Below, one piece after another: positions 1 to 45,414 of a DNA stretch of 46,084 nucleotides (its first letter is position 1; every line of letters starts with the position of its first letter). Source of the stretch: Prolixibacteraceae bacterium (GTDB taxonomy: Bacteria > Bacteroidota > Bacteroidia > Bacteroidales > Prolixibacteraceae). The DNA lies in contig JAFGVJ010000203.1 of NCBI GenBank assembly GCA_016938055.1, forward strand, positions 1 through 46,084. The letters run 5' to 3'. Below the pieces are notes generated by a model. The model was not told the DNA's origin. It was given only the letters and a program-made list of their open reading frames with translations, and did no database searches. A program made the translations under genes and the position numbers.

Positions 1-1401
1 GATGAATACATTGCCCGCGATGGATATGCTGCCCTGGGAAAAGTCCTTTCGGAAATGACACCCGAAGCGGCCATCAAAATCATTAAAGACTCAGGATTAA
101 GGGGCCGTGGTGGCGGTGGTTTTCCAACCGGCCTGAAATGGGAAATTACCAGTAAAGAAAAAAACAATCAAAAATACGTGGTTTGTAATGCAGATGAGGG
201 TGACCCCGGGGCATTCATGGACCGTTCCATTCTCGAAGGAGACCCACACTCAGTGATCGAAGCCATGGCCATATGCGGGTATTGCATTGGTGCCAACAAG
301 GGCTTAGTATACATCAGGGCCGAATATCCGCTGGCCATCGATCGATTAAAAACTGCCATCAAGCAGGCCCGTGAATATGGCTTGCTCGGTACGGAAATTC
401 TTGGCAACAATTTTGATTTCGACCTGGAATTGCGTTACGGTGCCGGAGCTTTTGTTTGCGGCGAAGAAACTGCCTTGATCCATTCCATGGAAGGCCTTCG
501 CGGTGAGCCAACTTTTAAACCACCTTTCCCGTCAGTATCGGGTTATCTGGGGAAACCTACCAATGTTAACAACGTGGAAACCTTTGCCAACATTCCGGTG
601 ATCATCAACAAGGGAGCCGAATGGTTTAGCAGCATTGGAACTGAAAAATCGAAAGGTACCAAGGTATTTGCCCTGGCCGGAAAGGTCAACAATGTGGGTT
701 TGATAGAAGTTCCCATGGGCATTACCCTGCGGGAAGTAATTTTCGACATCGGTGGTGGAATCCGTAACGGGAAGAAATTTAAATCTGTTCAAACCGGAGG
801 ACCTTCCGGTGGCTGTTTAACAGAAAAAGACCTGGATACCCCCATCGATTACGACAATCTCATTGCCTCTGGTTCCATGATGGGATCGGGTGGTATGATT
901 GTAATGGATGAAGACGATTGCATGGTGTCAATTGCCAAATTCTACCTGGAATTCACCCTTGAAGAATCATGCGGAAAATGCACACCTTGCAGGATAGGAA
1001 ACAAGCGTTTGCATGAAATTCTGGAGAAAATCACCCAGGGTAACGGAACCATGGAAGATTTGGAGCGCCTTCGCTTATTGGCAAATGTAATTAAGGATAC
1101 CTCCCTATGCGGACTTGGACAAACTTCCCCAAACCCTGTGCTATCTACTCTCGACAATTTTTATGATGAGTATGTTGCGCACGTAACTGAAAAGATTTGT
1201 CCGGCTGGACAGTGCAAGGCTTTGATCAGGTACGAAATCAACAACGATTTATGTACCGGATGTACCCTTTGCTTTAGGAATTGCCCGGTAGGGGCCATTT
1301 CGGGCGAGCGTAAAGCACCTCATTACATCAATCAGGAACTATGTATCAAGTGTGGTGTTTGCCTCGAAAAGTGCAAGTTTAAAGCAGTCAGTATTGTTTA
1401 A
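1..1401 (+). CDS. hydB: NAD-linked [FeFe] hydrogenase, NuoF-like beta subunit (5' partial)
   Basis: The reading frame is open from base 1, so the gene starts before the window; the ATG at 55 is internal. The 466 visible residues carry the FMN/NADH-binding glycine-rich segment ([14 protein letters not shown]), the [14 protein letters not shown] segment, the [10 protein letters not shown] [4Fe-4S] site, and a C-terminal two-[4Fe-4S] ferredoxin domain ([12 protein letters not shown] and [11 protein letters not shown]). The extra ferredoxin tail separates HydB from complex I NuoF. In this family the subunit oxidises or reduces NAD(H) and passes electrons to HydA in the cytoplasm. It lies 23 bp upstream of hydA and is clearly in the same operon. 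An N-terminal thioredoxin-like [2Fe-2S] domain, usual for HydB, would lie outside the window. Confidence 0.92.
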
Positions 1402-1424
1402 CGGTTCCTTAAAGTCTTTAAAAA

Positions 1425-3197
1425 ATGAATACGATTAAATTAACCATCGATAACAATGAAGTGGAAGTAGCAAAGGGAACCACTATTCTCGATGCTGCCA
1501 AAACCATAGGGGTGCATATTCCCACGCTTTGTCACATGAAGCTGCACGACATGGGCATAGAAAACAAGCCCGGAGGCTGTCGTGTTTGTGTGGTAGAAGT
1601 CAAAGGCAGAAAAAACCTGGCTCCCGCCTGTGTTACCGAAGTCAATGAAGGTATGGTGGTCGATACACACAACATCCGTGTGATCAATGCCCGACGCACC
1701 GTTACCGAACTCATTATTTCCGATCATCCTTTCGAATGTCTTACCTGCGCCAAATCAGGCGATTGCGAATTGCAGGATCTTGCTCATCAAATGGGCATCC
1801 GTGAAATCCACTTCGAGGGTGAAAAATCAACCTATCGTGAGGATACCTCACCAGCCATCATCCGCGACATGGACAAATGCATCATGTGCCGCCGTTGTGA
1901 AATGATGTGCAACGAAGTACAAACCGTTGGAGTACTCTCAGCCATCAACAGGGGATTCAGGGCAGTGGTTTCACCACCGTTTGAAGAAAACCTCGATCAC
2001 TCGGTATGTACTTATTGCGGACAATGTGTAGCAGTTTGCCCTACAGGTGCTTTAACTGAAGTAAACCATACCCCTGCTGTGATCAGGGCCTTGTCCGATC
2101 CCTCCAAAACCGTGGTGGTTCAAACAGCTCCTGCAGTTCGTGCAGCACTTGGTGAAGAATTCGGCCTTGAACCGGGTACGCTGGTTACCGGAAAAATGGC
2201 AGCTGCCTTACGCCGTTTGGGTTTCGACTTTGTATTCGATACTGATTTTGCTGCCGACCTCACCATTATGGAAGAAGGCACAGAATTGCTCTCGCGTTTA
2301 ACCCGCTTTCTCGCAGGTGATCAAACGGTGAAACTACCTATGCTCACTTCTTGTTGCCCTGCCTGGGTAAAATTCTTTGAACACCAGTTTCCCGATCTGA
2401 TGGACATTCCGTCCAGTGCAAAATCGCCGCAGCAAATGTTTGGTGCCATCGCGAAGAGCTATTTTGCAGAAAAGCAAAAAATCAATCGCAAGGACCTGGT
2501 AGTGGTTTCCATTATGCCCTGTGTGGCCAAGAAATACGAATGCAGCCGTGAAGAATTTACTGTTGATGGTAACCCCGATGTTGATTATGCACTGACAACC
2601 CGCGAGCTGGCAGCTTTGATCAAATTGGCCAACATCAACTTTAACTCACTGCCTGATGAAGATTTTGACAAGCCACTGGGTGAATCTACCGGAGCTGCAG
2701 TTATTTTTGGAACCACTGGTGGGGTGATAGAGGCAGCTGTTCGTACAGCTTACGAGTTACACACCGGCAAATCACTCGATAAAGTTGATTTTCTACAACT
2801 TAGAGGAATGGAGGGAGTCCGCGAAGCCACCATCGATTTCAACGGTCTGCCCATTCGCATTGGGATTGCTCACGGTCTGGGAAATGCCCGTAAATTATTG
2901 GAAGACATTCAAAGCGGAAAATCACAATTCCATGCCATCGAAATCATGAGTTGTCCCGGTGGTTGCATTGGCGGCGGAGGTCAGCCTTATCACCACAGCA
3001 AATCTGAAATCCTTAAAAAGCGGCAAATGGCCATTTACAACGAAGATGAAATGAAGACCATACGGAAATCACACGAAAATCCTTACATCTTGAAATTGTA
3101 TGAGGAATTCCTGGGTAAACCCATGAGCGAGAAGGCACATCACTTGCTGCATACCAGTTATTTCGACCGGAGTAAAAAATCAATCATGGAAGATTAA
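1425..3197 (+). CDS. hydA: [FeFe] hydrogenase catalytic subunit
   Basis: This 590-residue protein has the full modular order of a group A hydrogenase. A plant-type [2Fe-2S] domain comes first (Cys36, 52, 55, 69), then the His-ligated [4Fe-4S] site (HPFECLTCAKSGDC, His101/Cys105/108/114), then two ferredoxin clusters (Cys152-162 and Cys195-205). The H-cluster domain follows with all three signatures: L1 TSCCPAW near residue 308, L2 MPCVAKKYE near 363 and L3 EIMSCPGGCIGGGGQP near 505. The double Cys in L1 includes the proton-transfer cysteine, so the enzyme should be a standard active type rather than a sensory one. It reversibly produces or consumes H2. Sitting between NuoF-like and NuoE-like subunits, it fits the trimeric HydABC class that couples to NAD(H) and often to ferredoxin; bifurcation itself is inference. 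Confidence 0.96.
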   Translation: MNTIKLTIDNNEVEVAKGTTILDAAKTIGVHIPTLCHMKLHDMGIENKPGGCRVCVVEVKGRKNLAPACVTEVNEGMVVDTHNIRVINARRTVTELIISDHPFECLTCAKSGDCELQDLAHQMGIREIHFEGEKSTYREDTSPAIIRDMDKCIMCRRCEMMCNEVQTVGVLSAINRGFRAVVSPPFEENLDHSVCTYCGQCVAVCPTGALTEVNHTPAVIRALSDPSKTVVVQTAPAVRAALGEEFGLEPGTLVTGKMAAALRRLGFDFVFDTDFAADLTIMEEGTELLSRLTRFLAGDQTVKLPMLTSCCPAWVKFFEHQFPDLMDIPSSAKSPQQMFGAIAKSYFAEKQKINRKDLVVVSIMPCVAKKYECSREEFTVDGNPDVDYALTTRELAALIKLANINFNSLPDEDFDKPLGESTGAAVIFGTTGGVIEAAVRTAYELHTGKSLDKVDFLQLRGMEGVREATIDFNGLPIRIGIAHGLGNARKLLEDIQSGKSQFHAIEIMSCPGGCIGGGGQPYHHSKSEILKKRQMAIYNEDEMKTIRKSHENPYILKLYEEFLGKPMSEKAHHLLHTSYFDRSKKSIMED

Positions 3198-3215
3198 CCT
3201 CAAAATCAAGAAGAC

Positions 3216-3710
3216 ATGCCAAAAGTAAAATTATCAGAATACGCTACACAACTCATTAAGGAGATTTGTGCCAGCTTCAACAATCAGGAAGGTGAGTTGA
3301 TCAACGTGCTGCATCAAGTTCAGCATCAATTGGGATATTTGCCGGCCGAAGTCCAGGAATTGATTGCCCGTGAGCTTAAAATGTCGGCAGCCAAAGTTTA
3401 TGGTGTGGTTACCTTTTATTCTTTCTTTACCATGGTTCCACAGGGTGAACATCCTATTTCTGTTTGCATGGGAACAGCCTGCTACGTCAGGGGTGCTGAG
3501 CAAGTTTTGGATGAACTCAAACGACAATTGAAAATCAAAGTCGGGGAAACAACAGGCGATGGAAGGTTTTCACTCAGTGCACTACGTTGCGTTGGTGCCT
3601 GTGGTTTAGCACCTGTTGTGATGGTGGGCGATAAGGTATTTGGCCGTGTTGCTCCTTCCGACGTGAAGAAAATCCTGGAAGAATACAAAGAAGGGTGTAT
3701 GGCTGAATAA
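3216..3710 (+). CDS. hydC: NAD-linked hydrogenase, NuoE-like gamma subunit
   Basis: The 164-residue protein is a thioredoxin-fold [2Fe-2S] protein with the four expected ligands: Cys84 and Cys89 (CMGTAC) and Cys125 and Cys129 (CVGAC). Length and motif spacing match NuoE/HydC. It passes electrons within the HydABC trimer. The ATG lies 18 bp after the hydA stop. The gene order hydB-hydA-hydC puts the NuoE-like gene last, whereas in the well-known Thermotoga arrangement it comes first. A strong hairpin terminator follows directly, so this is the end of the operon. Confidence 0.94.
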   Translation: MPKVKLSEYATQLIKEICASFNNQEGELINVLHQVQHQLGYLPAEVQELIARELKMSAAKVYGVVTFYSFFTMVPQGEHPISVCMGTACYVRGAEQVLDELKRQLKIKVGETTGDGRFSLSALRCVGACGLAPVVMVGDKVFGRVAPSDVKKILEEYKEGCMAE

Positions 3711-35738: not shown

Positions 35739-38216
35739 ATGAGACTTCTAATTTTTACTCTTTTACTCAGTATGTTGTCACTCAGTTCGCTTTTTGCGGA
35801 CGTACGCGAGTGGAACATCAGTAATGATGAATTCAATGCTTTGGGTGAAATTTCAGCCACAACAACCGTAAATGGCCTGACTATTTATGCCACTGCCGAT
35901 AAAACTGTGGTTGTAGAACCCAATGGCAAAACACTGGATGGAATGGAATTTACTACCCGCATGAAATTGGGTGGTGCAGGTAGTCTGGAAGCTGGTGCCG
36001 AATACCGTGCTGTATCCATCGACGTAACCGGTAATACTACGATCTCTGTTGCTGCAATTTCATCGAGCAGCAGTGCCGACCGTGAGTTCTTGTTTATCAA
36101 TGCAGCCGGCGACACCCTGCATACGGCTCCGGTTTATGGTGCCAATATTGACTGGGCTGTTTTCGACTATGTGGGTGAGGCCACCACCATTTACATGGCT
36201 TCCAAATCGAGCGGCATCAACATTTACTACATCAAGGCCGAAGGTGAAGGCGGTGGTGGTGAAGAACCTCCCGTTGTTTCCGATCCATTGGCTATTTTCG
36301 ACCCTGCTACCGTAGATCCGGCCGACTTGAAACCAGGTATGGAAATTGTTGAAATTGGTGGCAAAAAGTACCTTCAGGTTGTAGTTGACGCCTGGAACTC
36401 CATTTTGGATGTTCCTGCCTTCAAATTTGAACCGGGAATGACTGCATTTACTGAATTCAAGTATGTGGTTACACAAACTGAATATACTGCCGCACAGATC
36501 AATGCAACCGTTCAATTGATTGACACAGTTAATTTGATGAAACCATCATGGTCAAATGACTCAGTTTCAACTACTACCGGTTTAGTACAATCGAATCCTG
36601 ACGGAACATTTAAGAAAGTTTCGGCAGGAGCTGCCGCTACCTCAAAAGTGGTACATCAGGTTCAATTCTTTGGACAGCAAAACGTAAGCTGGGGAGCTGT
36701 TGTGGGTGACACCCTTTGGGTAGGTAAAGTACGTGCCTATGTGAAAGATGATGCTTCAACCATTGCTAACCCTGAAACCTACGATCCTTCAAATTTGCCA
36801 GCCAACTGGGAAATTGTGGATGTTGAAGGTGCTAAATACTTCAAAGTTCATTTGGAAGGCTGGAACAACGTGCTTCCTGTAACTGAGTTTAGCATCCCTG
36901 CCGGTGCTACCGATTACAGTGCCATGATCAAGTTTGATAAAGGTACTTCAACCTACGAAATGAGCCAAGTAAACACTTTCTTCAAAATTGCCAATGTTGT
37001 AGGCGAAACCTGGACAGAACTGGGTGCTGGTGGTGCTGCCAGTAGTGCAACTTTCAAAAAGTATTCATTTGCCATTAAAGATGCCACCAAAACAGTCAGT
37101 GTTGTACAGGTTGCCGGACAAGAAACTTCTGGTTGGGGAGCCATCACCGGTGATTACCTGTACATTGGAAAAGTAACGGCTAACGTTACCATTCCACCGG
37201 ATCCGGACGCCATTCTTGACCCTGCAACTTTTGATGCAGCAAACCTGAAAGCTGGTTGGGAGATTGTGACCATTGGTGACAAAAAATACTTTAAAGTTCC
37301 GCTCGACGGTTGGAGCACATGGATGAATGTTCCTGAATATAAATTCCCTGCCGGACGCAACGCTTTCAGGGCTGAAGTGAAATACGAAGCCGGTACCTCT
37401 GGTGCTGCGTTGGACGGGCTGGGTGCATTCCTGAAGTTTTCTACTTCGGGTTGGGCCGAAATCGGAGCTGGCAGAACCGCTGTTGGTACCGAATTTGCCG
37501 AACAAGTTGTGACCATGGCTGCCAACGAAGGCAATGTAGCTGGTGTATTCCAGATTGCTGTTCAGGATGCCAACAATGGCTATTCCGCACTTGTTGGTGA
37601 TTTCCTATACATTGGTAAAATTTCGGCCTGCACAACTGCTCCTGTTACCTTCACCATCGACGATACCAAATTCAAAGCATACGATGGTTTTGTGATTCGT
37701 GGTAGTTGGTTGACCAAAAGTGGTATTTTCGATTCAGCCTGGAATGGTGGTGTTGACCATGCAGAATTTACCGACAGTGTATTGGTTGATGCTGAAAACG
37801 AAGTTTGGGAAGTGGACAACATTTGGGAGTATACCGTGAACCTGGTGGCCGATGGTGGCACCAACACCTGGAAATGGGGTTTCCTCGATCTCAATGGCAA
37901 CTGGAAAGTGACTGGTGCTGACCCAACATTCCAGGTTAGCGACTGGACCCCACAAACCATTACCTACACCATTGGTGGAACAAGTGTTGAAGACCTTTCT
38001 TCAAAACTGAAAATTTACCCGAACCCCGTGGTTAATATACTGAATGTGACAGGCATGGACATTGAAAGTGTTTCAATTTACAACCTGACCGGTGCAAAAG
38101 TTCATACCGGTACTTCCAACAGCATTGATGTTTCCAACCTTTCAAAAGGAACTTATGTTGTAAAAGCGATTGATCAAAATGGTGAAGTTGCCATCAGCAA
38201 ATTCTCAAAGAATTAA
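35739..38216 (+). CDS. Secreted multi-repeat protein with T9SS type A sorting domain
   Basis: The 825-residue protein has a signal peptide (LLIFTLLLSMLSLSSLFAD) and an N-terminal domain of about 150 residues (VREWNISNDEFNALGEIS...), resembling the carbohydrate-associated domains found in polysaccharide lyases. Three repeats of about 150 residues follow, near 187-340, 342-490 and 491-635, each opening with a D/NPxTxDxxNLxxxWEIVxIGxKKYFKVxLDGW pattern. A Trp-rich domain follows near 636-750. It ends in a T9SS type A sorting domain (KLKIYPNPVVNILNVTG... STYVVKAIDQNGEVAISKFSKN). It should be exported through the outer membrane and attached to the surface or released. The repeats are not a family I know; carbohydrate or polymer binding is inference. 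Confidence 0.9.
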   Translation: MRLLIFTLLLSMLSLSSLFADVREWNISNDEFNALGEISATTTVNGLTIYATADKTVVVEPNGKTLDGMEFTTRMKLGGAGSLEAGAEYRAVSIDVTGNTTISVAAISSSSSADREFLFINAAGDTLHTAPVYGANIDWAVFDYVGEATTIYMASKSSGINIYYIKAEGEGGGGEEPPVVSDPLAIFDPATVDPADLKPGMEIVEIGGKKYLQVVVDAWNSILDVPAFKFEPGMTAFTEFKYVVTQTEYTAAQINATVQLIDTVNLMKPSWSNDSVSTTTGLVQSNPDGTFKKVSAGAAATSKVVHQVQFFGQQNVSWGAVVGDTLWVGKVRAYVKDDASTIANPETYDPSNLPANWEIVDVEGAKYFKVHLEGWNNVLPVTEFSIPAGATDYSAMIKFDKGTSTYEMSQVNTFFKIANVVGETWTELGAGGAASSATFKKYSFAIKDATKTVSVVQVAGQETSGWGAITGDYLYIGKVTANVTIPPDPDAILDPATFDAANLKAGWEIVTIGDKKYFKVPLDGWSTWMNVPEYKFPAGRNAFRAEVKYEAGTSGAALDGLGAFLKFSTSGWAEIGAGRTAVGTEFAEQVVTMAANEGNVAGVFQIAVQDANNGYSALVGDFLYIGKISACTTAPVTFTIDDTKFKAYDGFVIRGSWLTKSGIFDSAWNGGVDHAEFTDSVLVDAENEVWEVDNIWEYTVNLVADGGTNTWKWGFLDLNGNWKVTGADPTFQVSDWTPQTITYTIGGTSVEDLSSKLKIYPNPVVNILNVTGMDIESVSIYNLTGAKVHTGTSNSIDVSNLSKGTYVVKAIDQNGEVAISKFSKN

Positions 38217-38247
38217 GTTTGAATTAAATAGATTTCATTAGTTTAGG

Positions 38248-38284
38248 AAAAGTCGGTAGGCGAAAGTTTACCGACTTTTTTTAT
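38248..38284. terminator. Bidirectional intrinsic terminator between the T9SS and exosortase-like genes
   Basis: AAAAGTCGGTA pairs with TACCGACTTTT around a ten-base loop, with A and T flanks. It ends both convergent transcripts. Confidence 0.88.
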
Positions 38285-38811
38285 TTTTTCAGGTTAGAGA
38301 ACCAAAACCATAAACCGAAAATTGCCAGGTAAATGAAGCCCTGAAATACAAAATGATGAAGAAAATCGAGTTGTTGATAACAGCATTCCACCACGATGGT
38401 TAAAGCAGCCATACGCATGGAATTCAGCAGAAAAATGATAAAAAAACCCAAGGGGATGAACCAGGCCTTGGTCCTCAAACTGCCAGGGTAAGCCAATAAA
38501 AAGATCAGAAAAACAAAGAAGAGATTGACACCCAGACAATCATACACTACTTCCACAGCCTGATCGGAACCTGTCAGCCACATCTTTCGCTCAGCGTAAT
38601 TGACCGAAACATCATGTTTAAACAATTTGAGAAAAGCAAGGCCTGTCTTCAGGTATAGGGTAGAAGCCAGTTGAGTAAAGTCAGTGTATTGTCCGTGAAG
38701 GATCATCCATTTTCTGAAAACCCTCCAAACAATAAACATTGATGCGCCTTTGATTAAAAAGCGATTCAGATCAGTAGTTTGTTGGTACTTATCAATGAAT
38801 TTACGAAACAT
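38281..38811 (-). CDS. Exosortase/archaeosortase-family transmembrane protein
   Basis: The 176-residue polytopic membrane protein has the three catalytic positions of the exosortase family in order: Cys92 in YDCLGVNLFFVFLIFLLAYPG, Arg133 in NSMRMAALTIV and His152/His153 in FLHHFVFQGFIYLAIFGLWFW. Spacing and flanking hydrophobic helices match the short Bacteroidota exosortases. The subtype is not decided by eye. Family knowledge: these are transpeptidase-like enzymes that cut a C-terminal sorting signal (motif, membrane helix, basic tail) from exported proteins. No protein with such a C-terminus is visible in the window. Its ATG directly follows the stop (TAG) of the tonB-like gene, so it is almost certainly translated from the exbB-exbD-tonB transcript. 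Confidence 0.85.
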   Translation of the reverse strand: MFRKFIDKYQQTTDLNRFLIKGASMFIVWRVFRKWMILHGQYTDFTQLASTLYLKTGLAFLKLFKHDVSVNYAERKMWLTGSDQAVEVVYDCLGVNLFFVFLIFLLAYPGSLRTKAWFIPLGFFIIFLLNSMRMAALTIVVECCYQQLDFLHHFVFQGFIYLAIFGLWFWFSNLKK

Positions 38812-39756
38812 CTAATTTAACACAAACCGATAAGTAATGGTCCCGGTTTGGAATGCGGGAGCATTTTTATCCTGGTTGAAACGGGTAGAAAGGGCTGCAC
38901 GTTTGGCAGCATTCAACAAGCCCGTATCGAGCGAGGTTGAACCTCTGACCCCTGCTTCAGCCTTGGTAACCACACCGTTTTGATCAACGGTTACCTGAAC
39001 CACCACAATGCCTTCTTCCTGCCCGGGATAAGTGGGTTTTGGCAGCGTTTCGGCCGATCGACCGGACAGGTTAAAGGTAATCCCTTCGCCTCCTCCTGCG
39101 CCATACTGGTTTGCACCCGGAGTTCCGCTCCCGGAACCTTGATTACCTGGTTCGTAAGTTACACCCTGCCCCGATGACTCTGAATTGGTCTGCCCTGCTC
39201 CGCCTCCACCAAACACATTTTGAGCTCTTTGGTTGATTGCAGCAATCCTTGCTGCCTCCTGAGCTCTGCGAATACTATCTTGTCGTTGTATTTCCCGCAA
39301 ACGTCGCTGCTCTGCCAGACGTTCCTGTTCAATTTTTTGACGGGCTTCTTCTTCGCGGCGTTTTTGTTCCTCGGCGGCTTTTCTTATACGGGCTTCTTCT
39401 TCCAGTTTCTTTTTATTTTCTTCCTCCAACTTCTTTTTTCCTTCATCGATGGCTACCGTTTTCTCAAAGTTCTGGGTCACCACTTCTTCTTTTCCCTGGT
39501 TTTGAACAGGTTTTGAGGCAGCAACAGGAGGTGGAGGAGTTGGGGCAGCTTGTTTAATTTCCTGCTGCTGTGGTTGTGGCGCGGGTTCTTGTTGTCCCAT
39601 TCCAACGTTCGAGCTACCAAAATCAACCAGTATTCCTTTGTCTTCGGGGAGTGGCAAGGGTGTAAAAAACCCCAGTTTCATCAACAGGAGTAACAATGCC
39701 ACATGAAACAGCATTGTCAACAAAAGACCTTCTTTATGTTTTTTGAAGTAGCTCAC
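38812..39756 (-). CDS. TonB-family energy transducer
   Basis: The 314-residue protein has an N-terminal membrane anchor (LLLTMLFHVALLLLLMKLGFF), a Pro/Gln/Lys-rich periplasmic region (APTPPPPVAASKPV), a long Glu/Lys/Arg coiled stretch near 100-170 (KKLEEENKKKLEEEARIRKAAEEQ), a Gly-rich linker and a C-terminal TonB-like domain of about 80 residues (GIVVVQVTVDQNGVVTKAEAGVRGSTSLDTGLLNAAKRAALSTRFNQ). With ExbB and ExbD it carries proton-motive force to outer-membrane transporters. The length and coiled region also recall TolA, so it could serve a Tol-like or envelope role instead. No TonB-dependent receptor gene lies nearby. Confidence 0.88.
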   Translation of the reverse strand: MSYFKKHKEGLLLTMLFHVALLLLLMKLGFFTPLPLPEDKGILVDFGSSNVGMGQQEPAPQPQQQEIKQAAPTPPPPVAASKPVQNQGKEEVVTQNFEKTVAIDEGKKKLEEENKKKLEEEARIRKAAEEQKRREEEARQKIEQERLAEQRRLREIQRQDSIRRAQEAARIAAINQRAQNVFGGGGAGQTNSESSGQGVTYEPGNQGSGSGTPGANQYGAGGGEGITFNLSGRSAETLPKPTYPGQEEGIVVVQVTVDQNGVVTKAEAGVRGSTSLDTGLLNAAKRAALSTRFNQDKNAPAFQTGTITYRFVLN

Positions 39757-39765
39757 AAACTGTGT

Positions 39766-40173
39766 TTATTTTTCAGGACTGGTAGCCAGAATCATTTTGT
39801 ACTCGTTCCTACGTGCAATGTTCATAATTTTTACCACTTCCTCGATTGGAACTGTTTGATCGGCATGCAGGGAAATGTACATATCTTCTTCAGGCACAAT
39901 GGTTCTTTGCAAAAAAGGTTCTATGTCGTTGAATTGCACTTGAAGTAGTTTACCGTTTTCATTCACAAAGTAACGCAAGTCACTGGTTATCGATATGGTC
40001 GTCAGCGGTTTGGCCTGTGTTTGATTGCTGCTTTGCGGTAACAACAGCTTCAGTGCATTGGGTGCAATGAGGGTGGACGTTACCATGAAAAAGATGAGCA
40101 ACAGGAATACAATGTCAGTCATGGACGACATGCTGAACGAGGCATCAATTTTATTTCTTTTTTTCAGTGCCAT
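39766..40173 (-). CDS. exbD: ExbD/TolR-family proton channel subunit
   Basis: The 135-residue protein has one N-terminal membrane helix (MTDIVFLLLIFFMVTSTL) with Asp20 as the proton-carrying residue, and a periplasmic domain of about 90 residues. It is the standard length for ExbD/TolR. It lies 9 bp after exbB and 9 bp before the tonB-like gene, all on the minus strand, so the three form one motor operon. Confidence 0.93.
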   Translation of the reverse strand: MALKKRNKIDASFSMSSMTDIVFLLLIFFMVTSTLIAPNALKLLLPQSSNQTQAKPLTTISITSDLRYFVNENGKLLQVQFNDIEPFLQRTIVPEEDMYISLHADQTVPIEEVVKIMNIARRNEYKMILATSPEK

Positions 40174-40182
40174 AAGTCATCT

Positions 40183-40872
40183 TTAGGATGCAGGTTCATT
40201 CAACAAATCCATGAATTCAGTTGTTGAAGCTTCCATTTTGAACACAACGCTCTCGACGCGGGCCACTAGAATGTTGTAGGCGAAGTAGGCAATAATTCCC
40301 ACGATAAGACCGGCAACGGTAGTGACCATGGCCTGATAGATTCCTGATGAAAGCAAGGTTACATCAATGTTGTTACCGGCATTGGCCATATCGTAAAAGG
40401 CCTGAATCATTCCCATAACCGTACCTAAAAACCCAATCATGGGAGCACCACCAGCCACACTGGCCAGCACAGGTAAACCCTTTTCAAGTTTAGAAACTTC
40501 CAGATTACCCACAGTTTCGATGGCTGTACTCACATCGTTTAAGGGGCGTCCAATGCGGGAGATTCCTTTTTCAATCATCCGGGTGATGGGCAGATCTTTT
40601 GACCGGCACAAAGCCAGTGCGGCATCAATTTTACCCTCCTGGATGTTGATCCTGATCTGATTCATCAGGTTGGGATCTACTTTCGATGCTTTCTGAATAG
40701 CAACATAACGATCACCGAAAATGTATACCCCAATGATGGATAGCAAAACAATCGGGATCATGATCCACCCTCCTTTTAATGCCAAACCCAAAAAATCAAG
40801 GGTGATACCCTGAGGTTCCATGGCCAGCACATCGGCTGCGGTATTTACTTGTAAAATGAAAAATGATAACAT
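40183..40872 (-). CDS. exbB: ExbB/TolQ/MotA-family proton channel subunit
   Basis: The 229-residue protein has the expected three membrane helices (WIMIPIVLLSIIGVYIF near 35-51, then a pair in the second half: IGFLGTVMGMIQAFYDMA and MVTTVAGLIVGIIAYFAYNIL) and a cytoplasmic loop between the first and second. It is the first gene of the exbB-exbD-tonB-exosortase operon. The motor uses the proton gradient across the inner membrane. No clear promoter was found in the 105 bp to the tamB-like gene. Confidence 0.93.
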   Translation of the reverse strand: MLSFFILQVNTAADVLAMEPQGITLDFLGLALKGGWIMIPIVLLSIIGVYIFGDRYVAIQKASKVDPNLMNQIRINIQEGKIDAALALCRSKDLPITRMIEKGISRIGRPLNDVSTAIETVGNLEVSKLEKGLPVLASVAGGAPMIGFLGTVMGMIQAFYDMANAGNNIDVTLLSSGIYQAMVTTVAGLIVGIIAYFAYNILVARVESVVFKMEASTTEFMDLLNEPAS

Positions 40873-40977: not shown

Positions 40978-43900
40978 TTAGTTAGTTTCTGGTGGATCTT
41001 CAGATTTATTCCGTTTAAAGGTACGTTGAATAAATGTTTTGAACCTTTCGGGCAATTCCTTGAAATTGTTAAACTCTTCACGATATGAAAGCCCAATTCC
41101 CCAGGTGTTCGGTTCTGTCATGTAAATGATGTTGTCGTTAGCATGATTGTAGGCTTTCAATTGCAATTTACCATTGTCGGTGAGCTTCACATTCACGTCG
41201 AAATCTCCTACCACATTATTGTTGGTAGCATTGGGATTGGCATTGTTTCCAATATTTCCGTCAATGGTGACGCGATCGTTCAGAATTTGGGTGCTCAGGG
41301 CCAGTTCAATTTGATCGTTTGAAATCTCATTTCCGGGGCGGTAATTGAAGCCCAGGTCCCAAACATCGCTAATTTTTGACAACCAGTTGCTCAACTGATT
41401 GGAAAAAAGCTCACTGGCCGTTGTTCCGAACAATTCGGCACTGGTTTCTGTAGTGGGGCGTCCGGCAAAAAATTCAGGGGTGTAAAACCGTCCCAACATC
41501 AACAACGAGATAAACTGCTTATTGATGTCTTCGCGGGTTACAATCAATTGGCTGACTTCATCTTTGATCCTCTCTTCCACGGTAGGCAATTCAATGGTGA
41601 AATCAATTTTGGGGGTCATGAGGTTTTCAGTGAGTTGAATAATGCAATCGACAGGAATTCTGCGTGAAAGGTCAATATCCTGATAATCGCCTACGAACAA
41701 GTCGTACAATGATGTTTTCACTTTGTAAACCGCTTTGATATTGATTAGGGCGTCATAGGGATCACCCACCCACTCCATGGTGCTTCCGCTTTGAATGGTA
41801 AAGCGTTTGTTGATCACATTTTGAAGTGTGAACAAGTAATCTCCTTCGTTAATCACATAATTTCCGTAAATGTTGATGTTGTAATTCCGGTCGACCCTGA
41901 TTTGCAGATTTCCCGAACCAGTTCCTTTGATTACATCACCCACCTGTGAATTGAAAATAATCTGGATTTTGGCCTCGGGCGTGAGTTCAACATCAAAATT
42001 CATATCGAGCCCTGTGGTATTGACCTGGTATTTGGGCATTTCTTTCGATTCGGTACGGTGATTAATGAACTCAATAAAATCATACTGTTCAGCATTTTCA
42101 CCACTTTCGTAAGGGATATATAGGTTGCTGCCTTTCTGGCTGCGCAAATCACCCGCGAGCAAAATATTGCTTCCCTCACCTGTGATGTCTAAATTACCAC
42201 TGATGAAGGCTGTACCATAAAAATAATTGTTATCGGCCGCTGTGGTATTCAGTGCCAGCAGGTTGTTACTCACCACTTGCATGTTGTATACCATGTTGTT
42301 AAAGGTTTGATGTTTCAGGCTTCCGGAAAAAAATCCGCTATTGCCCAATTCATCATTGAACCTTATATTTCGGAAAATGATGGAATCACCTTCAAAATAG
42401 ACCGGATCGGAAAAGAAATAAGTGGTATTTAAGTACGAAAGCCCAATGGATGCTTCATGAACCGGGGTTAATACACCATCGTGTTTGATGTGGTAAGTTT
42501 TACCATGCAAATGAACTTGTCCATTGACATGTCCTTGCTGATTATTGAAGGTAGAAGGCATGAAAACCTGTAAAAATGAAACCGGTGAATTATCAAATAA
42601 CAGGTTCATATCCATTTGATTGTTCAATGGATCGATGTTGCCGCTCGCCTTAAAGATGGTTCTGTTGTTGTTCAATAAAGTGATGGCTGAATTGAGGTTT
42701 TCCTGTTGGTTGTCCCATTTGCTAGAAACGGCAAGTTCTCCCAGATAACTCCCGTTGTACGACAGCTCATCAACCAAAAGGTCGAGATCCAGCATTATTT
42801 TTTCATAGGCATCGGACAAACGCAAGTATCCGTTCAGCTTTCCTCCAAAATATGAACTTCCCATAAAAGGTTCGAAAAGCAGCAAATCGATGTTTTCAAT
42901 TTTAGCCTGTAAAATTGCTGTTTCATCTTTAGAAATGATCCCTTCAACATGCAACCTTTGGTCGTTATGATGAAAATCAAGTTTGTTGACCCTGATTGTT
43001 GATGAGTCGATTGAGATGTGGGTCTCATTCAGGGTCCAGATTGAATCGGAAAAATAAAACGCCGACGGCTCAATTAAAATTTCCATGGAAGGATGCCTGC
43101 TTTCAGTTGCTTTGAAGCGAGTATGAGTTTTCAGTTTTCCGCTGAAAGTTTCTTCCCCGTAATTGTTCCAGAAAACGTTCACATCCAGTTGATCGTTTCT
43201 GCCATGCGATTCTACCGAAACATTGTAAAGGTTGAAGCGCTCTCCTATGCTGAATTTGTCGGTTTTCACACGGGCCAGGAGATTCTCCCTGTTCCCGGTT
43301 ATATTCAGTCTGATTTGCTCCATCCGCCGATTGGCATATTGAACCATCGGGATGGTTGAAGTGCAAAACACAGAATCTTTCAGCGGTTTATAATAACCTT
43401 CGACATAAAAATCAGGTTCAACAGACAATTCAGGTACAACTAATTTACTCAATGAATTCACGTCCTTGATATGGAAACGATAGGCAAAATCATTCTGTTC
43501 ATCGATTGTAACCGTTGGCATAAGCGACGATGATGGCAAATATTGCTGGTAAAATGCAATGAATGATTTTCCAATACTCATCAGCTTGTATTGTCCCGTG
43601 ATATGCCCATCAAGCCAGTCACTTTCAATGGTTAATACATTTTCTCCACCACGATAGGCATTGTTCAATTGCAAGCTTTGCAATTGAAATTCATCAATTT
43701 TATTTTGATATAACACATTGGAAAGGGAAAGATTTCCACGGACATTGTCAATGTTGCTGCCTTCGAAATTAGCATCCACATCCATGCGTACAATGGCTGC
43801 TTCATCGTCGAGTAAATGCAATTGAAAAAGGTTGGCATGTTCAACGTTTGAGACAAATTCAAAGACCGGCAATTCAGGTGAAAGATCCAGTTTTCCGGAA

Positions 43901-45414
43901 AAGGTCATGTGCAAGTTTGGATCTGCGATCGCAAAATCGCCATTGAAACGGCTATTCTGAATTCTTCCGGCCAACTTGATATGATGATAGCTGTATTGGT
44001 TAAAGTCAATAGAATCAACCACTCCATCGAAGGTAAGGTCGTAATTTGAGTGATAATCAACAGTACCATTTACTTCACCCGATAGTGATAGCTGGTCGAG
44101 CCGCTCGTGACCAAAAATCCTGCCAATGTGCAAATTTTCGGTGGCGATGTGCCCATTCACTTTAATCCTCTCGTGCTCCACAGGTTTGAAAGAAATATCG
44201 CTGGTGATAATACCCAGGTTACTGTATGCAGTGCCGTAAGCAACAAAATCATCGATAAAACCGGTAAAATTCCCCTGATAACTAAAAGTCCCGACATTAT
44301 CGAGAAATTTGGGCAGGTTGTCAATGGCCTGTTGAATACGGGGCGGAAGATCGAGGTTCCTGATTTCATTCAAATTGGCGTAGGATTCATTCAAATCCAG
44401 AAAAATATAGGCCGAACGTAGCTCTGATAAATCATTGATATAAAAATCACCGTTCAGGTGTGTGAAGTTTTCAACTGACAATTTGAAATCCTTTCCCCTG
44501 AAATTGAAAACATCCCCCTGGATTCGGCCTGAAATTTTTGAACGAAGATCCTTATCGTATCCAGGACCGAGAAAACAGGCCAGGTCACGCATGTTAAAAT
44601 CCAGTTCATGAATATCCAGCATAATTTCCAAATCATTCAGTTTTCCTGTTTGAATGAAACGGTTCATATGCAATACCAAACTATCCACTTCCAGACTCGA
44701 ATGAGCTGAAGCTCCCTGAATATTGGCTATACTGAGTGTTGAATCAGCATAAGCCAGCGAAGCGGAGCAATTGTTCAGTAAAAATTCGTTTTCGCTCGCA
44801 AAAGAAAGGGTTTCAAGGTGGACCGAAAGTTGTTGTTCCCTGTTGAGCCTGAAATCATCGAGGGTAAGGTTGAATTGTTCCATGGTGAGCCATTGGTTAA
44901 AAACCATGCTTTGCCTGGCATCATTCATCAGCAGGTGGCCATTTTTCAATTCAAAACGGCTGCAATTGAATCGCCAGTTTTCCGATGTTGGAGTTTCACC
45001 TGTATTCAACAATTCCAACAGAAAATTAAAATTATACCCGCTGCTGTCATTGGCCTGTATGTGCAAATGAGGCTCATTGAAACGGATCGATTTAAAATGG
45101 ATCTTTTTATTTCGGAACGAAAGAGAATCGATGCTGGCCATCAATTTGGGTACATAAAAAAGGGTATCTTTCTGCTGGTCGCTAAGGTATACTTCTTCCA
45201 AAATGATTTTCCTGAAAAGTGCGATGTCTACTTTGCCAATGGAAACATCGGCATTGGTTTCCTGTGAGATTCGTTTTGAAATGGACGAAATGATACGGGT
45301 TTGAACAATACTGCTCTGGAAAACGAAATAACCAGTCACACCGGTAATGATGATCATTGAAATCATTACCAACAGAATATTGATCGTTTTTTTAATATTT
45401 TTGCCCTCCATCAT
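40978..45414 (-). CDS. TamB-like translocation and assembly module protein
   Basis: The 1478-residue protein has one N-terminal membrane anchor (INILLVMISMIIITGVTGYFVF) and a very long, beta-strand-rich body with AsmA-like segments near the start (IVQTRIISSISKRISQETNADVSIGKVDIALF). The C-terminal 400 residues match the TamB domain: QKGSNLYIPYESGENAEQYDFIEF, YIPYESG-type and NYVINEGDYLFTLQNVINKRFTIQSGSTMEW, then TVEERIKDEVSQLIVTREDINKQFISLLMLGRF. Such proteins bridge the periplasm and are tied to outer-membrane assembly or lipid transport. No TamA/BamA-type gene is adjacent. The ATG at 45414 is followed by a second Met, either of which may be used. Confidence 0.93.
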   Translation of the reverse strand: MMEGKNIKKTINILLVMISMIIITGVTGYFVFQSSIVQTRIISSISKRISQETNADVSIGKVDIALFRKIILEEVYLSDQQKDTLFYVPKLMASIDSLSFRNKKIHFKSIRFNEPHLHIQANDSSGYNFNFLLELLNTGETPTSENWRFNCSRFELKNGHLLMNDARQSMVFNQWLTMEQFNLTLDDFRLNREQQLSVHLETLSFASENEFLLNNCSASLAYADSTLSIANIQGASAHSSLEVDSLVLHMNRFIQTGKLNDLEIMLDIHELDFNMRDLACFLGPGYDKDLRSKISGRIQGDVFNFRGKDFKLSVENFTHLNGDFYINDLSELRSAYIFLDLNESYANLNEIRNLDLPPRIQQAIDNLPKFLDNVGTFSYQGNFTGFIDDFVAYGTAYSNLGIITSDISFKPVEHERIKVNGHIATENLHIGRIFGHERLDQLSLSGEVNGTVDYHSNYDLTFDGVVDSIDFNQYSYHHIKLAGRIQNSRFNGDFAIADPNLHMTFSGKLDLSPELPVFEFVSNVEHANLFQLHLLDDEAAIVRMDVDANFEGSNIDNVRGNLSLSNVLYQNKIDEFQLQSLQLNNAYRGGENVLTIESDWLDGHITGQYKLMSIGKSFIAFYQQYLPSSSLMPTVTIDEQNDFAYRFHIKDVNSLSKLVVPELSVEPDFYVEGYYKPLKDSVFCTSTIPMVQYANRRMEQIRLNITGNRENLLARVKTDKFSIGERFNLYNVSVESHGRNDQLDVNVFWNNYGEETFSGKLKTHTRFKATESRHPSMEILIEPSAFYFSDSIWTLNETHISIDSSTIRVNKLDFHHNDQRLHVEGIISKDETAILQAKIENIDLLLFEPFMGSSYFGGKLNGYLRLSDAYEKIMLDLDLLVDELSYNGSYLGELAVSSKWDNQQENLNSAITLLNNNRTIFKASGNIDPLNNQMDMNLLFDNSPVSFLQVFMPSTFNNQQGHVNGQVHLHGKTYHIKHDGVLTPVHEASIGLSYLNTTYFFSDPVYFEGDSIIFRNIRFNDELGNSGFFSGSLKHQTFNNMVYNMQVVSNNLLALNTTAADNNYFYGTAFISGNLDITGEGSNILLAGDLRSQKGSNLYIPYESGENAEQYDFIEFINHRTESKEMPKYQVNTTGLDMNFDVELTPEAKIQIIFNSQVGDVIKGTGSGNLQIRVDRNYNINIYGNYVINEGDYLFTLQNVINKRFTIQSGSTMEWVGDPYDALINIKAVYKVKTSLYDLFVGDYQDIDLSRRIPVDCIIQLTENLMTPKIDFTIELPTVEERIKDEVSQLIVTREDINKQFISLLMLGRFYTPEFFAGRPTTETSAELFGTTASELFSNQLSNWLSKISDVWDLGFNYRPGNEISNDQIELALSTQILNDRVTIDGNIGNNANPNATNNNVVGDFDVNVKLTDNGKLQLKAYNHANDNIIYMTEPNTWGIGLSYREEFNNFKELPERFKTFIQRTFKRNKSEDPPETN

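Follow-up and report, generated by a model that had tools for sequence, protein, structure and literature searches.

A tonB-linked exosortase-family gene in Prolixibacteraceae and a candidate class of exported mini-protein substrates paired with type IX secretion cargo genes

The targets of exosortases in the Bacteroidota are an open question. In Flavobacterium johnsoniae, xrtF and genes of the type IX secretion system (T9SS) both emerged in a surface-colonization screen with mutant validation, and the study, as far as its accessible part goes, leaves the exosortase substrates to future research (PMC10936215). The available passages of a T9SS study speculate on parallels between the C-terminal conjugation of that system and exosortase systems (PMC7468200). 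In Anabaena, zinc uptake is reported to be mediated by a PEP-CTERM exoprotein that an exosortase probably cleaves, which is the nearest published tie between exosortases and metal uptake that was found (PMC10957091). Among the matches listed in a literature search of titles and abstract openings, with subscription journals largely outside, there was no work on a tonB-linked exosortase or on mini-proteins paired with T9SS genes. In this study, such an exosortase-family gene (xrt; 38281..38811, minus strand), located directly behind tonB in a stretch of 46,084 nucleotides from a Prolixibacteraceae bacterium (assembly GCA_016938055.1, contig JAFGVJ010000203.1; hereafter the window), was analyzed together with its relatives and with a class of small exported proteins that are candidates for its substrates.

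On balance, we lean towards the reading that the tonB-linked exosortase cuts exported mini-proteins and that tonB merely supplies a housekeeping operon in which the gene resides. The enzyme family, its catalytic residues, the linkage, the clade, the co-occurrence with mini-proteins and the pairing of genes are read from sequence. Comparisons were made in a family sample of 100 genomes (Prolixibacteraceae by contig titles) and an order sample of 295 genomes, both drawn from larger groups; the genome of the window is denoted G000.

The product of xrt, a membrane protein of 176 amino acids (aa), scores 53.4 bits against the exosortase/archaeosortase model TIGR04178 and passes its cut-off of 23. 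The best subtype is XrtX (NF046081) at 112.5 bits, short of the cut-off of 170, and the scores for every named exosortase subtype listed are below their cut-offs, as is that for Pfam PF09721 (Exosortase_EpsH; 21.5 bits, gathering score 25.7). The exosortase-family identity proposed in the initial annotation of the locus is supported. The residues that it had pointed out in this protein, Cys92, Arg133 and His152-153, are indeed C, R, H and H; in an alignment of the window protein with five orthologues, C92, N130, R133 and H152 are invariant and position 153 is Q in one sequence. Conserved Cys, Arg and His residues have catalytic roles in this family. An AlphaFold2 model computed from a seven-row alignment only is mostly helical with a short strand pair (pLDDT 83.8, pTM 0.75); it had no match at E <= 0.001 in the PDB or BFVD using Foldseek, and no PDB chain matched xrt by sequence.

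In a tree of 53 exosortase rows, the seven tonB-linked xrt proteins form one clade (support 96/87), which joins a 24-row XrtX-like group at 99/99. This group contains all 12 order-level loci in which a small gene resembling those for PID-CTERM proteins lies just upstream of xrt, the labels for these loci having been assigned by hand. A second exosortase of these genomes (seven rows) is separate in the tree at 100/100; the single TIGR04178 match of G356, a 95-aa frame, was left out. As judged from these comparisons, xrt is an intact-looking exosortase-family enzyme with a clade of its own, sister to the XrtX-like enzymes.

In the window, xrt is the last gene of an apparent operon on the minus strand. 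It is preceded by a tamB-like gene (40978..45414; PF04357, 196.2 bits, and synteny), an exbB/tolQ-like gene (40183..40872, 229 aa), an exbD/tolR-like gene (39766..40173, 135 aa) and a tonB/tolA-like gene with a GTG start (38812..39756, 314 aa). The scores of ExbB (PF01618, 103.6 bits) and ExbD (PF02472, 84.1 bits) are above the gathering scores, whereas the tonB product is TonB/TolA-like with scores below the cut-offs (PF03544, 16.2 of 24.6 bits; TIGR01352, 24.7 of 27.1; TolA TIGR02794, 44.3 of 59.45). The gap between tamB and exbB is 105 bp, and the spacings reported for the following genes were confirmed as 9 bp for exbB-exbD, 9 bp for exbD-tonB and 0 bp for tonB-xrt, where the TAG stop of tonB abuts the ATG start of xrt. 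However, the term 'fused' in the title of the initial annotation does not apply, as the four are separate reading frames of adjacent genes and no gene fusion is present.

Matches to xrt at E <= 0.01 were found in seven of the 100 family genomes (G000, G308, G348, G316, G296, G312 and G304), and in all seven the gene adjoins tonB, so the linkage is more than chance. Six have both genes on the same strand, with spacings of 0 (G000), 1 (G308), 2 (G348), -1 (G316), 3 (G296) and 6 bp (G312); in G304 xrt runs towards tonB from the other strand in a convergent arrangement, and the two genes overlap by 26 bp. The complete order exbB-exbD-tonB-xrt is kept on one strand in five of the seven (G000, G308, G348, G316 and G296), and the order tamB-exbB-exbD-tonB is likewise seen again in relatives by synteny. 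The fetched locus of G312 contains tamB, tonB and xrt and no exbB or exbD match. In two members of the genus, G356 and G325, exbB-exbD-tonB is followed by an opposite-strand open reading frame (ORF), with no xrt behind it; in G363 and G337 the contig breaks off within tonB or shortly behind it, and these genomes were not counted as being without xrt. At the order level, xrt matches occur in 106 of the 295 genomes including that of the window, the rest being weaker. Among the 39 best-scoring regions besides that of the window, some of them short, none had a match to ExbB, ExbD or TonB (tblastn, E 1e-3). The tonB link is therefore a trait of the lineage and not of this kind of enzyme, and the position behind tonB is chiefly a feature of gene order by which a separate exosortase clade can be recognized.

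The candidate substrates are 14 collected mini-proteins of 52-93 residues, two of which (loci L128 and L137) are near copies. They begin with a signal peptide that ends in AQ and continue with a segment rich in proline (consensus QPLPPxxPxGxPVP), in most cases [IVA]G, a hydrophobic region and a terminus rich in K/R. Counted from the Gln through the last motif residue, the length is 14 residues in 12 of the 14 proteins and 15 and 18 residues in the other two; the motif reads PVP in ten, KVP in three and PTP in one, and the length of the proline-rich segment varies in order-level relatives. A Gln following the signal peptidase site is the Bacteroidetes Q-rule as given in the accessible parts of two reports, and the Gln of the mini-proteins fits it (PMC5837995, PMC10653852). 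A frame of 519 aa with a PVPI-type tail lies directly downstream of one mini-gene (L179, 4652-6211, minus strand, contig C607 of G348), which suggests that the candidate substrates are not all tiny.

At the order level, 12 of the 39 loci have a small gene immediately upstream of xrt (L033-L037, L040-L043, L047, L048 and L051, picked by eye with a search pattern that also matched unrelated frames); the C-terminus of its product has a motif of the PIDGG or PLDGG type followed by a hydrophobic segment and basic residues. The PID_CTERM model NF046080 gave only sub-cut-off matches over 12 family genomes (best 21.1 bits, cut-off 26), and below the cut-off it also matched in eight of 14 control genomes. 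Two of the sub-cut-off matches, both in G296, are 78-residue proteins with the mini-protein layout. Using one of them as the query, relatives at E < 0.001 were obtained in G296, G316, G348 and G304, and none in G356, G325, G363, G337, G370, G000, G308 or G312. A profile (A2) of 12 sequences from G296, G316, G348 and G304 was then run over the 100 family genomes and gave matches at E < 1e-5 in G296 (at least seven), G316 (at least three), G348 (at least two), G304 (at least one) and G312 (at least one), and in no other genome of the family; these counts are lower bounds, with at most 63 candidates scored per genome (at most 21 in the order-level search with profile A3). Matches are thus found in five of the seven genomes with a tonB-linked xrt and in 0 of the 93 without it, or in 4/4 versus 0/19 when counted by genus, and among the genomes lacking xrt the strongest match (E 2.1e-4) lies inside a long frame. 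Order-wide, at least 50 of the 295 genomes match profile A3; xrt is matched in 41 of these 50 and in 65 of the 245 others. The kinship of the genomes is ignored in these statistics and in those on gene pairing given below.

The sorting of T9SS cargo follows a different route, through the T9SS and PorU. The mini-genes mostly lie beside genes for such cargo. When the nearest same-strand upstream ORF was taken as the upstream neighbor, ten of the 14 mini-genes had a neighbor matching TIGR04183, the T9SS type A sorting domain, at E <= 0.01. Ten partners had also been picked by eye, and a scan of 300 residues gave TIGR04183 matches in nine, of which seven scored at least the 23 bits of the cut-off. 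In a control set of 54 further ORFs from the mini-gene loci, TIGR04183 was matched in at most three, since it was not among the 25 families listed, which have three members each; the difference between 10/14 and 3/54 corresponds to a Fisher p of 8e-7, although the control consists of mechanical ORFs of at least 150 aa, some of which are perhaps not genes, and its rate would then look low. Order-wide, a same-strand ORF lies no more than 350 bp upstream in 21 of the best 30 A3 loci, and TIGR04183 is matched in 16 of the 21 (L215 and L234, where no mini frame was found, were left out of the count). Two mini-genes without a T9SS neighbor, L185 4777-4971 and L189 3382-3540 (both minus strand, in G296 and G348), lie directly upstream of a gene that is yaaA-like by eye, with recN- and rlmD-like genes upstream of them.

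According to the mechanism that we favor, the mini-protein would be exported by Sec and cut by signal peptidase I before the Gln in keeping with the Q-rule. The membrane-bound exosortase may then form a thioester through Cys92 near the junction of PVP and xG in the mini-protein, and would either release a short proline-rich peptide or transfer it to a putative acceptor. With both ends cut, only the proline-rich peptide of about 14 residues would be left. This product probably serves the surface display of T9SS cargo, because most mini-genes follow a T9SS cargo gene. The link to tonB would reflect placement in the housekeeping envelope operon tamB-exbB-exbD-tonB and not a complex of motor and enzyme. 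For the open question of exosortase targets in the Bacteroidota, a concrete candidate substrate class is thereby named, which has a T9SS cargo gene as its recurrent partner and for which a cut beside PVP and a remaining peptide of about 14 residues are predicted; if true, two surface-sorting routes would be tied together. A broader version, which we regard as doubtful, is that exosortase and T9SS are joined through a peptide in the Bacteroidota: many large T9SS surface proteins would be made together with a mini-protein, which signal peptidase and exosortase would trim to a short peptide that is rich in proline, capped by pyroglutamate and, in this lineage, 14 residues long. The exosortase would then attach this peptide to the cargo or to a carrier in the membrane, where it would act as an anchor or a tag. 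Pairing of this kind is seen across the order (16 of the 21 scanned upstream ends), with one lineage keeping the enzyme in a tonB operon.

Several observations weigh against mini-proteins as the substrates. No mini-protein reached the PID_CTERM cut-off in the search of 12 genomes, and mini-genes do not adjoin xrt in the fetched tonB-linked loci. Profile A2 was built from four of the five positive genomes, so that the independent test consists of G312 and the negatives, and the genomes are related. Four of the 14 upstream neighbors have no TIGR04183 match, among them recN, rlmD and response-regulator genes. At the order level, nine of the 50 genomes with a mini-protein match have no xrt match, and 65 of the 106 genomes with an xrt match have no mini-protein match. 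Furthermore, no mini-protein was found in G000 or G308 using profiles A2, A3 and A5 and the tail profile A6, so that the case for the mechanism is built on relatives. The best match of G000 to A5 (L191, E 0.0015) covers a signal peptide only, and ten inspected profile matches from G000 and G308 (with L260 from G325) lie inside frames, lack the motif or are signal peptides; one frame in G000, L274, has a hydrophobic stretch and a KRRKHA end but no PVP motif. The initial annotation saw no cognate substrate; a candidate class is present in five of the seven xrt-bearing genomes, although none was found in that of the window.

This absence raises the alternative that the xrt of the window genome is an orphan or is decaying, its substrates having been lost or changed past recognition while the gene is kept by a conserved operon. 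The two genus members without xrt behind tonB would fit such a course. However, the frame of xrt is uninterrupted and still encodes the invariant residues, and absence is weak evidence when the assemblies are incomplete (completeness 80.7% for G000 and 91% for G308), since mini-proteins there may have been missed as well as lost or changed; we consider an orphan enzyme unlikely, while taking it seriously. The proposal of the initial annotation was of another kind, namely that the exosortase and the ExbB-ExbD-TonB motor physically act together, for example to place or energize a surface protein. Adjacency to tonB in 7/7 xrt-bearing family genomes, at -1 to 6 bp in the six same-strand cases, is the sole point in favor of this and makes a complex conceivable. 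It is disfavored by the convergent xrt of G304, by G312 with no exbB or exbD match beside tonB-xrt, by the exbB-exbD-tonB genes of G356 and G325 without xrt, and by the 39/39 order-level homologue regions in which no Ton gene was matched. Given the variable orientation, the one locus without exbB and exbD and the order-level regions, joint work of xrt and the Ton motor is not supported by the gene-order evidence; the complex is quite improbable and was rejected on the G304 orientation, G312 and the order-level regions.

The mini-proteins might instead serve the second exosortase of these genomes, as G296, G316 and G348 contain both enzymes. The distribution argues otherwise: G304 and G312 have mini-proteins, yet the tonB-linked exosortase is their only one over the TIGR04178 cut-off, and G325 and G363, which possess only the second type, lack mini-proteins. 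Another kind of tail, found once each in G316 and G325, which both carry the second exosortase, may fit that enzyme. The mini-proteins were accordingly rejected as its substrates on the G304/G312 and G325/G363 distribution, and we give this alternative very little credence. A substrate encoded in the operon itself, such as TonB or ExbD, would agree with tonB being the one constant neighbor, and dedicated sorting enzymes often adjoin their target. Nevertheless, inspection by eye shows no hydrophobic C-terminal stretch with a basic end in the TonB, ExbD or ExbB proteins of the window, and genomes that lack xrt behind tonB, such as G356 and G325, have a similar TonB N-terminus, which makes cleavage of an own-operon protein the most improbable of the explanations weighed here. 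Cleavage of mini-proteins by the tonB-linked enzyme is the reading that we retain.

Other features of the region are as follows. The two sequences with the other kind of tail are a 258-aa frame ending VPVPLIASLLG...RKRKKK (L144, 856-1629, minus strand, contig C73 of G316) and a 225-aa frame ending VPISIIASLFG...RRKRKKA (L260, contig C119 of G325); both are perhaps substrates of the second exosortase. In G000, a second exosortase-family gene (L060, contig C231, 22-510, plus strand) overlaps by 4 bp a downstream gene (507-1028, plus strand) for a 173-aa membrane protein, which matched no NCBIfam family at E <= 0.01; a similar pair is present in L086 of G308. Downstream of xrt in the window, a convergent T9SS type A cargo gene (35739..38216, plus strand, 825 aa) was identified by TIGR04183 (38 bits, cut-off 23) and synteny, and its homologues also adjoin xrt in G296 (L082) and, in the other orientation, in G316 (L080). 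This cargo protein was considered as an exosortase substrate and rejected, since its C-terminus consists of a T9SS domain and lacks a hydrophobic tail. A terminator-like hairpin of 18 pairs with a T run (38244..38283), obtained from a consensus scan only, lies between the two genes and agrees with xrt as the final gene of the operon; such sites number four in the region against a shuffle mean of 3.4. A promoter scan of the region was uninformative (three sites, 5.3 in shuffles), and an Rfam search of the window gave no match. The far end of the window (55-3710, plus strand) contains a cluster resembling NADH dehydrogenase and iron hydrogenase, with NuoF-, hydrogenase- and NuoE-like genes recognized by eye only.

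Compared with the described systems, the window enzyme is closest to exosortase X (NF046081), which is the top-scoring subtype for it (112.5 bits) and for five orthologues (91.8-117.2 bits) and whose relatives form the sister clade; however, all six are below the cut-off of 170. The order-level homologue loci differ in their surroundings, with a mini-gene just upstream in 12/39 and Ton genes in 0/39. XrtF of Flavobacterium (TIGR04128) is likewise a short Bacteroidota exosortase, and the window enzyme scores 50.5 bits to its model, under the cut-off of 90. The PEP-CTERM/EpsH system, as outlined in the accessible text, shares the membrane-embedded exosortase and the tripartite C-terminal tail (PMC7468200), but xrt reaches only 9.7 of the 105.55 bits of TIGR02602 and the candidate substrates have another motif. 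The mini-proteins resemble the PID-CTERM tail (NF046080) in combining a tail motif with a hydrophobic segment and a basic terminus, and 6/12 match it weakly (E <= 1, best E 2.8e-4), whereas their motif is mostly PVP[IVA]G instead of PIDGG and none is over the cut-off of 26 bits in the 12 genomes. Finally, the likeness to the T9SS is found in the neighboring genes, the type A sorting domain (TIGR04183) being present in the gene directly upstream of ten of the 14 mini-genes.

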